Positions 4,000-6,938 of a DNA stretch of 46,109 nt are shown piece by piece. Every line of letters begins with the position of its first letter. Position 1 is the first letter of the stretch. The DNA comes from Thermodesulfobacterium hveragerdense DSM 12571. Its GTDB lineage: Bacteria; Desulfobacterota; Thermodesulfobacteria; Thermodesulfobacteriales; Thermodesulfobacteriaceae. The stretch spans positions 1 to 46,109 of the forward strand of contig NZ_AUIT01000014.1 of the NCBI RefSeq assembly GCF_000423845.1, written 5' to 3'. The notes below the pieces were generated by a model, which saw only the letters and a list, made by a program, of their open reading frames with translations, was not told the origin of the DNA and made no database searches. The position numbers and the translations under genes are program-made.

Positions 4000-4395
4000 A
4001 TGAATTCAAAAAAAAGAAAATTTTTAAGTTTTTTTTCTTTGGGCGTTTTGGGTTTTTTGACTTATGGAGTTTTTAAAAACCTAAGTAGTTTATCTTCTCC
4101 CCCACCTAAAAAGGTTATGGTTCTTTTTGAGGAGATAGAAAAAGCCAAAGATATCCTTTTTAAAGAAAACTTTATTGTGATAAAAACAGGCACTAATTTT
4201 AAGGTTTTTTCCAGGAAGTGTCCTCATTTAGGCTGTTTGCTTAGCTATTCTCTTGAAGAGGGTTTGATCGTCTGCCCTTGTCATCAAAGTAAGTTTAATC
4301 TTTATGGAAAGTTTCTCTCTGGACCTGCAAAAAAAGACCTTACTACCTTAAATTACAGACTTACTTATCAGGGTTTAGAGGTTGAGGTTTTTTAG
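4000..4395 (+). CDS. Rieske [2Fe-2S] protein of a cytochrome bc-type complex
   Basis: A 131-residue small Rieske protein. One N-terminal membrane segment or uncleaved signal (residues 8-25) follows a basic KKRKFL stretch that resembles a Tat signal with Lys-Arg in place of the twin arginines. The cluster site is complete: Cys74-Pro-His76 with Cys79, and Cys92-Pro-Cys94-His95, giving two Cys and two His ligands and the Cys79-Cys94 disulfide of high-potential Rieske centres. Its stop overlaps the cytochrome b start. It is expected to take an electron from menaquinol at the outer membrane face and pass it to a c-type haem, here probably the multihaem cytochrome. Confidence 0.92.
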   Translation: MNSKKRKFLSFFSLGVLGFLTYGVFKNLSSLSSPPPKKVMVLFEEIEKAKDILFKENFIVIKTGTNFKVFSRKCPHLGCLLSYSLEEGLIVCPCHQSKFNLYGKFLSGPAKKDLTTLNYRLTYQGLEVEVF

Positions 4396-5233
4396 CTTTT
4401 CCACCTCTCCTAAGCTCAACTTGTTTATAGCCAATCTCTGTTTGATAAGCCTTATAATCTCCATTTTATCTGGGATAGTGGTTAGTTATCATTACTTTTA
4501 TACCGAACCTCTCTACAGTGTAATTCAGTTAGAGTCATCGGTGCCTTTTGGTAGGTTCTTTAGAAGCCTTCACTATTTTTCTTCTCAACTTGCCTTAATT
4601 TCAACTTTTTTCCATCTGCTAGATAGCTTTTACAGAGGATGGCATCATAAAAAAATTTTTGTTGCCTGGTTGTTTTTGGTGTTAAGCTTTATCGTCCTTA
4701 TTTTTGTAACGTTTACCGGTTATGTGATAAGGTTTGATGAGGTAGGGAAGCTTGCAGGAAGCATAGCTGAAAATCTTTGCTTAAGCATACCTTATGTAGG
4801 AGAAGCTTTAAGAGACCTTTTGTTCCCAATTTCTAAAGGAGGTCTTTATAGAGTTTATTTAGCCCATATCTATGGTTCTTTTTTGTTAGCCATAGGGCTT
4901 TTTGTTTGGCATGCCTCGATAAAACGGGTTCTAAGCCTTAAATATGCCCCTTATCTTTACCTAAACCTGATTTTGCCCTTCATCTTTTATGTTCCTCTTG
5001 AGTCAGAGAAAGGAAAAACGGTAGTTACTGGTCCATGGTTTTTTTGGGGGGCTCAGGGACTTTTAAAGTTTTTACCCCCTTTGGGAGTACTTTTTTTAGC
5101 GGTTTTTTGGCTTGTTCTTTTAGGTTTTAAGCCTGCAAGAAAGTTTAGCCCCTGGATAGGTGGTGCTTTAATATTGTGGTTGTTAGTTTATTTTATTTTT
5201 AGCCTTATCATCTACAGAGATGCCCACACTTAA
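4382..5233 (+). CDS. Cytochrome b subunit (b6-like) of a quinol-oxidising complex
   Basis: A 283-residue membrane protein with about seven hydrophobic helices. Two pairs of haem b ligands sit on two helices: His-X13-His in SLHYFSSQLALISTFFHLL and His-X14-His in LAHIYGSFLLAIGLFVWHA. The X14 spacing on the second helix is that of the b6 type. The first part matches cytochrome b6 and the last three helices could serve as a short subunit IV. A PEWY-type Qo motif is not clear; VPLESEKG occupies a possible equivalent site. The start is a TTG at 4382, 14 bases inside the Rieske gene, and the 3' end overlaps the multihaem gene by 14 bases. Such overlaps imply coupled translation of a fixed complex. 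Confidence 0.88.
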   Translation: MRFFSFSTSPKLNLFIANLCLISLIISILSGIVVSYHYFYTEPLYSVIQLESSVPFGRFFRSLHYFSSQLALISTFFHLLDSFYRGWHHKKIFVAWLFLVLSFIVLIFVTFTGYVIRFDEVGKLAGSIAENLCLSIPYVGEALRDLLFPISKGGLYRVYLAHIYGSFLLAIGLFVWHASIKRVLSLKYAPYLYLNLILPFIFYVPLESEKGKTVVTGPWFFWGAQGLLKFLPPLGVLFLAVFWLVLLGFKPARKFSPWIGGALILWLLVYFIFSLIIYRDAHT

Positions 5234-6938
5234 ACGTTTAGCTAAGACTAAATCGTTTTGGATTTTATTAGGATTAACTATTTTCCTCTGTTTGTTCTAT
5301 TCTGAAGCTAAAAAAGACAGACGAGAGGTTGCTAAGTTAACCTCAGGTGAGGTAGAGTTATGTATCACTTGTCATCAGGAGGTAGTCCCTGAAAAGGTGC
5401 ACGAAAAAAAGGTCGTTGGTTGTTCTTCCTGTCATTTAGGGAATCCCTATACGTTAGACTTTAAAGAGGCCCATAAAAACATAGTAAAAAACCCCGGGGA
5501 TCTGAGATATGTTAATCTTACCTGTGGACAACTAGGCTGTCATCCTACTGAGATATCGAAGGTAAAAAATTCTCTTATGGCTACCAATCATGGAATGATA
5601 AAAAGAGTCCTCGAAGTTTTTGAAGAAAAAGAGGTTTTATCTTTATATCCTAAGTTGAGTGTATCTCAACTTTATCACAGGGAGGTTTATCATAAAACCA
5701 GAAACAGCTTAGGTTTAGACTATTACCGAAAACTTTGTGGCAGTTGTCATCTTTGGTTAGAAAAGGGAAAACTCCCCTATTTTTTGAAAGAAAAAGGAGG
5801 GGGATGTTCTGCCTGTCATTTGGTAAAGGAGGAAGATGAGAGCCTCAATTCTTCTCGAAAAACCCATCCTAAACTGGTTAGATATCCTCCGATGGAAAAC
5901 TGTGTAAGGTGCCATAACCGAAGTGGGAGGATAGGTTTTACCTACCAAGGACTTTATGAAAATGAACAAGGAGGGGTAGGGGATGAAGTTTGGGTTGACG
6001 GAAGATGGTTAGATCGGGTTTCTCCTGACATTCATTTCCAAAAAGGGTTAAAATGCGTAGACTGCCATACTAAAGAAGAAGTGATGGGAGATGGGAATTT
6101 TTACTACAGTTTGCATGAGGCTTTAGAAATCGAATGCCAAACCTGTCACGGAGGAGATGGGACTACTAAAAAAGGAAGGAAACTAAAAAATTTTCAGAAA
6201 AAAGGGACTCAGGCTTATTTAGAAATTAAAGGTTCTGAAAAACTACTTTTAATCAAAAAATCGGTTAGAGCTTGTAGCCTTTCTTATCATAAACGATTAA
6301 CCTGTGTGAGCTGTCATGCCAAACATATGCCTGATTGCTATGGCTGTCACATAAAATATGACCCAAGAGACACCCATCTTGACAAAATACTTGCTAAGGA
6401 AACGAAGGGGCTCTGGATAGAGCATGAATCTTATAGAAGACTTGCACTTCCTACTTTAGCGGTGGAAGATAATCAAAGAGTGGTTACCGTTACCCCAGGC
6501 TGACAGGATTTTATCACCATCCTCTCAGAGACAGGAGAGGTAAAAAAAGAAATAACAAGCCTTACCTTTGCTAAACTTAACCCTCATAGCACGGGGAAAC
6601 AGGGGCGTTCTTGTAAAAGTTGCCATCAAGACACAAAAACCTTAGGGTTAGGGTATGGAAAGGTGGTAAAAGGTAAAAATTCTATAGAGGTTGTAAACTT
6701 AGAAAAACCTTTTCTAAAATCTCCGCGGGTTTGTCTTTCTCAGATGGTTACCCTTAACGGAACTAAGCTGGTCAATTTTTCTCGGCCAAATCTTCGTCCT
6801 TTTAGTCAGGAGGAACTGGTAAAAATTTTAAGGGTGGGTTTTTGTCTAAACTGCCATTCTGAAAAGGATAAGATTTTTAAAAAATGGCCTCCTAAAAAGG
6901 TTTGCCCTTATGCTAAAAAATTTCAAATCAATTTCTAA
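5220..6938 (+). CDS. Multihaem c-type cytochrome with in-frame UGA (possible selenoprotein)
   Basis: The N-terminus has one membrane segment (residues 12-30), then a periplasmic domain with 11 CXXCH sites and one CX4CH site (CGQLGCH). The first 427 codons carry ten of these sites. At 6501-6503 a TGA interrupts the frame, yet the same frame stays open for 144 more codons with two further haem sites (CKSCH, CLNCH) and ends at TAA 6936-6938. Read through, the product has 572 residues with the UGA at residue 428, in the context TPG-UGA-QDF. A hairpin suited to a SECIS element follows. The 3' end resembles the C-terminus of other large multihaem cytochromes, so the UGA is either selenocysteine or a recent nonsense mutation. 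CSLSYH near residue 355 looks like a haem site that lost a Cys. The protein is the likely electron acceptor of the Rieske/cytochrome b pair encoded just upstream. Confidence 0.8.
6521..6540 (+). promoter_or_regulatory. Candidate bacterial SECIS hairpin after the in-frame UGA
   Basis: CCTCTC (6521-6526) pairs perfectly with GAGAGG (6535-6540) around an 8-base loop AGAGACAG. The loop starts 23 bases after the UGA and has G as its second base, which agrees with the general bacterial SECIS pattern. A weaker lower stem is possible between TTTTA (6509-6513) and TAAAA (6541-6545). Folding and conservation have not been tested. Confidence 0.5.

Follow-up and report, generated by a model that had tools for sequence, protein, structure and literature searches.

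Multihaem cytochromes that carry selenocysteine (Sec) have been reported before. ExtKL (GSU2937-2936) is a described multihaem selenoprotein (Fujita 2007, PMC1914089; Jahan 2018, PMC5877670), for which Fujita and co-workers left open the possibility of a split gene (PMC1914089). It belongs to the same Geobacter ext cluster as ExtM (PMC1914089, PMC5877670, PMC13188914). The octahaem tetrathionate reductase family (TIGR04315) is annotated as a selenoprotein in GenBank, and both ExtKL and this family are included among the 119 prokaryotic selenoprotein families of a 2026 inventory (PMC13188914).

Here, we analysed a stretch of 46,109 nt from the heat-loving sulfur bacterium Thermodesulfobacterium hveragerdense, hereafter the window, in which a frame on the forward strand (5220-6938) encodes a c-type cytochrome related to ExtM (GSU2935, twelve haems). 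The two are homologous over the length of ExtM, and in their alignment every one of the 12 haem sites of the window protein is invariant, and so is its P-x-[C/U]-Q site. The best NCBIfam match is the ExtM model NF040943, with 313 bits, which lies below the equivalog cut-off of 800; full-length homology, 12 haem sites and the Cys/Sec-Gln site place the protein in a wider, ExtM-like family. Given the conserved Sec/Cys site, the Sec machinery of the genome, a hairpin tied to Sec and selection downstream, we consider it very probable (about 0.93), from sequence comparison, that UGA 428 of this twelve-haem cytochrome is decoded as Sec.

The frame is a single gene of 573 codons ending with TAA at 6936-6938, and the predicted product is 572 aa long with Sec at residue 428. 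As the original prediction had described, it is interrupted once, by the TGA at 6501-6503 (+; context PG-U-QDF), and then runs on for 144 open codons (6504-6935, +) with two further CXXCH sites (C465 and C542). Ordinary gene calling would end the protein at residue 427, losing both of these haem sites and the Sec. Counting every frame of both strands, the window has 1303 TGA triplets, 9 of which are followed by at least 144 open codons, so the open frame by itself says little and it is conservation that counts. In this respect, dN/dS after the UGA was 0.095 in each of two sister pairs (with L019 and L020), close to the upstream values of 0.12 (L019) and 0.07 (L020). For the very close L018, the values were 0.34 after the UGA and 0.12 upstream, with few changes counted. 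The portion after the UGA is thus maintained as protein under purifying selection.

These values bear on another reading, namely that translation truly stops at the UGA, or that a frozen nonsense mutation has left a truncated or decaying cytochrome. The nominal ORF does end at 6503, and TGA ends other ORFs of the window. We nevertheless regard this as highly improbable, since purifying selection acts on the frame downstream, haem sites 11 and 12 do not vary and the TGA is conserved across many genera at a column that is Cys in other homologues. Decay into a pseudogene, a worry raised at the outset, is rejected on these grounds. That worry had been founded on the motif CSLSYH, taken for a haem site that had lost a Cys. 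The motif (6273-6290, +) is instead a C-x4-H element, C352-x4-H357, whose Cys and His are both invariant among the close homologues of the PGxQD clade. The stop itself would also be accounted for by two separate genes, the second starting after the UGA, but this is just as improbable, because the Cys homologues run on uninterrupted across this position as one protein and the residues flanking the UGA do not vary.

We then consider residue 428 across homologues. Among 62 distinct close homologues with the PGxQD motif, 47 have Sec and 15 have Cys, with no third residue, and the context is always PG-[U/C]-QD; the in-frame UGA is therefore aligned with Cys, as is typical of a selenoprotein. At class level, 29 of the 30 long matches listed (own genome included) have TGA aligned at residue 428, and the single exception among them, L021, has a TGC Cys codon. 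A search for relatives outside the class covered 395 genomes from the phylum as well as the GTDB contig collection, and the close ones have either TGA or a Cys codon at this position. Moreover, 28 further ExtM-type relatives have Cys at the 428 column, and distant ExtM-type proteins have Cys in PG-C-Q or SP-C-Q. The ExtN-type paralogues alone differ, with Tyr, His, Phe or Gly. The original prediction, which had suggested Cys or another residue in a PG-X-Q context in related cytochromes and would have been contradicted by homologues with neither Cys nor Sec, agrees with these data, as orthologues show only Sec or Cys. The same holds for sister genomes: in G020, G025 and G032 the codon is likewise TGA, never a sense codon.

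The nearest named match to the window cytochrome is that of T. thermophilum DSM 1276 (95% protein identity), and the Sec form is found in about ten families of the phylum. The tree requires 4 changes between Sec and Cys, which is compatible with a single Cys-to-Sec gain at the root of one clade and about three later reversions to Cys. The site is probably central to the working of the protein. It should be noted that five genomes of the same genus (G021, G023, G028, G030 and G031) possess selB and lack the Sec cytochrome, so not every member of the genus has the gene.

A 6-bp hairpin with an 8-base loop had been predicted at the distance from the UGA expected of a bacterial SECIS. Such a SECIS-like hairpin is indeed present at 6521-6540 (+), as CCUCUC-AGAGACAG-GAGAGG. 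Counted from the UGA, its stem begins at 17 nt and its loop at 23 nt; loop position 2 is a G, and the energy is -8.9 kcal/mol. Taken alone, it is unremarkable by dinucleotide shuffling (z -0.81); the signal comes from synonymous-codon shuffles and from homologues. For this, the best such hairpin after codon 428 was scored in all 62 genes against 200 synonymous-codon shuffles per gene. Sec members reached a mean of -8.9 kcal/mol, compared to -3.7 for the shuffles and -2.7 for other regions of these genes (paired test, p 2e-12, a statistic that ignores relatedness; p 5e-5 for 18 representatives chosen across clades). Cys members gave a mean of -2.9 kcal/mol versus -3.2 for the shuffles and -3.3 elsewhere in the same genes, that is, no hairpin signal (paired test, p 0.72), and the two groups differ (p 4e-6). 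Conservation of the predicted element is thus confined to the Sec members.

The hairpin is found in 46 of the 47 Sec members, 19-26 nt after the UGA, as expected of a SECIS. Its stems vary on both sides among lineages (e.g., GCTTTC/GAAAGC, GTTTTC/GAAAAC and CGTTCC/GGAACG); since the hairpins were chosen for pairing, the evidence lies in these varied pair types and not in the percentage of paired bases. L021, the Cys member that adjoins the Sec member L022 in the tree, retains a hairpin of -10.7 kcal/mol (p 0.005). Judged from its sequence, L021 is a recent Sec-to-Cys reversion (TGC for TGA) with a relic SECIS.

If UGA 428 is read as Sec, the host should possess the Sec machinery. A survey of the genome (1.73 Mb, 42 contigs) revealed all four components: tRNA-Sec (selC, 80 bits; ARAGORN agrees, with anticodon TCA), selB (384 bits), selA (611 bits) and selD (341 bits; G000:C9:70544-71476, locus L090). 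The earlier remark that the window holds no sel genes is correct, all four lying elsewhere in the genome, and the absence of selB and selC, which would have spoken against Sec, is not what the genome search found. The selD gene has an in-frame TGA of its own, in the motif SGUAAK (KASGUAAK); SelD of this genome is likely a Sec-containing protein, and this TGA is an internal sign of a Sec system in use. The distribution of the machinery does not discriminate between the Sec and Cys states, because selB occurs in all 68 genomes, including every Cys genome tested. TGA is otherwise a working stop in this genome. General recoding of UGA is ruled out, as window genes such as yebC (1480-2286) end in TGA with another stop a few codons later.

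Upstream of the cytochrome gene, and on the same strand, lie genes for a Rieske [2Fe-2S] protein (4000-4395, +; PF00355, with CPHLGC and CPCH motifs) and a b6/ExtP-like cytochrome b (4382-5233, +; PF00033, and 82 bits to the ExtP model, below its cut-off). The order is Rieske, cytochrome b, multihaem cytochrome, with overlapping ends, the cytochrome b gene overlapping the start of the multihaem gene by 14 bases. The gene pair has the cluster motifs and the domain of a quinol-oxidising b/Rieske unit. Its position directly upstream lends support to the original description of the cytochrome as quinol-linked, and electron flow from quinol to the cytochrome would be the natural inference for this organism. 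The same order is seen in other Thermodesulfobacteria (L145, L146 and L148-L150) and around the Cys relative L103, and Rieske and cytochrome b genes are also found nearby in true ext clusters (L124, L127 and L128). In many other Sec members the cytochrome gene stands apart, the Rieske and cytochrome b genes not being adjacent, so quinol coupling may differ between lineages. The sole Rfam match within the window is an ordinary tRNA gene at 1362-1446 (-; Rfam tRNA, 58 bits).

The protein starts with a hydrophobic helix (5220-5315, +; residues 3-32, also a helix in the structural model) that may act as signal or anchor, and its c-type haem sites suggest that it is exported. The haem sites comprise 11 CXXCH and one CX4CH (C102-C107-H108), 12 in total, all invariant in the alignment. 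Outside of these, the invariant Cys positions are 352, 428 (Sec) and 562. The AlphaFold2 model (pLDDT 90.6, pTM 0.86) predicts that residue 428 is located on a long strand belonging to a beta-rich module, which is placed between haem sites 10 and 11. With E below 0.001 as the threshold, Foldseek found nothing for the whole model or for the Sec-bearing module (residues 338-488). In structural alignment, the whole model came closest to the undecahaem cytochrome 6qvm, at a Z of 3.5 that is too low to rely on, and the module gave matches of Z 4.2 or less, mostly to unrelated kinases and hydrolases. This lack of a fold match does not show a new fold. A PHROGs scan also gave no match.

We propose that UGA 428 would be decoded by SelA, SelB, SelC and SelD, guided by the hairpin just downstream, to yield an ExtM-like twelve-haem cytochrome facing the periplasm. 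Electrons would pass from membrane quinol through cytochrome b and the Rieske protein into the haem chain. Sec428, within the invariant PG-[U/C]-Q motif, would place a chalcogen at the point where the haem chain acts chemically on its substrate, either beside one haem or as its ligand. Replacing an ancestral Cys, it could be more strongly nucleophilic or lower the redox potential. As for the substrate, our guess would be an oxyanion of sulfur or of a metalloid, or else a different partner in the periplasm. We put a specific role of Sec at a haem at roughly even odds. That Sec naturally ligates a c-type haem iron in an axial position, or acts as the catalytic residue at an open haem, seems to us a real possibility that falls somewhat short of even. 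We know of no natural selenolate-ligated haem, but only of engineered ones, such as Sec-substituted P450.

Residue 428 could also serve purely as an axial ligand, Sec428 or Cys428 tuning the potential of one haem iron with no catalytic part. The invariant candidate distal ligands in the clade are H61, H85, H216, H272, H357 and H456 together with M120 and M289; six His and two Met for 12 haems imply that some haems are ligated otherwise or are open. Cys haem ligands occur in other c-type cytochromes (SoxAX, TsdA and DsrJ), which provides a precedent, and on the same side we count the variation at this position in the ExtN-type paralogues (Tyr, His, Phe or Gly). The fold search, however, gave no close solved relative, and we consider this reading less likely than not. 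Rather unlikely, in our opinion, is a selenenylsulfide between Sec428 and the invariant Cys352 (or Cys562) that serves as a two-electron relay or redox switch. Apart from position 428, C352 and C562 are the sole non-haem Cys that are invariant within the PGxQD clade; C352 occurs in all 36 clade members and in 69% of the wider set. In the wider ExtM group, however, Cys428 persists in proteins lacking C352, so that there the site works without that partner.

Compared with known systems, the window protein is closest to ExtM. The ext clusters, like the window locus, hold a Rieske protein and a cytochrome b, whereas the window locus has neither ExtN nor ExtKL as a neighbour. ExtM proteins above the NCBIfam cut-off (L123, L124 and L127, 963-1064 bits) have Cys at the site, followed by QT or QV, while the window protein has Sec followed by QD. 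In passing, the NCBIfam models NF040967 (ExtN) and NF040968 (ExtO, Rieske subunit) gave near-identical hits on the same multihaem region; to judge from these hits, the ExtO model may have been built on ExtN-like cytochromes and be mislabelled. Weaker likenesses, all below family level, were found to the OcwA-type 6i5b and to NrfA 3ubr (local profile similarity in haem regions, E 0.0002-0.0005) and, in a single structural match, to 6qvm. To our knowledge, none of these three cytochromes contains Sec.

The octahaem tetrathionate reductase family resembles the window protein in being a multihaem cytochrome with a predicted Sec (PMC13188914); membership is ruled out, there being no TIGR04315 match at E up to 1. 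Similarly, ExtKL is a multihaem c-type cytochrome with one predicted Sec from Thermodesulfobacteriota (PMC1914089, PMC5877670, PMC13188914), but it differs in having five haems and the Sec context PDG-U-PTP (NF040886), against twelve haems and PG-U-QD. The window protein is not an ExtKL either, as the model NF040886 is absent among its matches at E up to 1. Moreover, ExtKL has no match in the whole genome and is absent from the closest sisters. Elsewhere in Thermodesulfobacteria, ExtKL-type Sec cytochromes are common as a separate gene (e.g., L154-L157), and G013 and G015 each have one ExtKL-type copy without TGA. In the ext loci L123 and L129, an ExtKL with Sec (PDG-U-PTP) adjoins an ExtM with Cys at the column where the window protein has Sec.

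Since it differs from ExtKL and is not listed in the 2026 inventory of 119 families (PMC13188914; search of freely available literature), the ExtM-like cytochrome appears to represent a selenoprotein family that is new, although proteins of its kind are known. It would add a family in which a respiratory cytochrome carries Sec within its haem-rich core. The natural Sec and Cys versions, together with a fresh reversion that keeps its relic SECIS, make the benefit of selenium in an electron-transfer chain testable, and they point to a conserved functional residue in ExtM of Geobacter.
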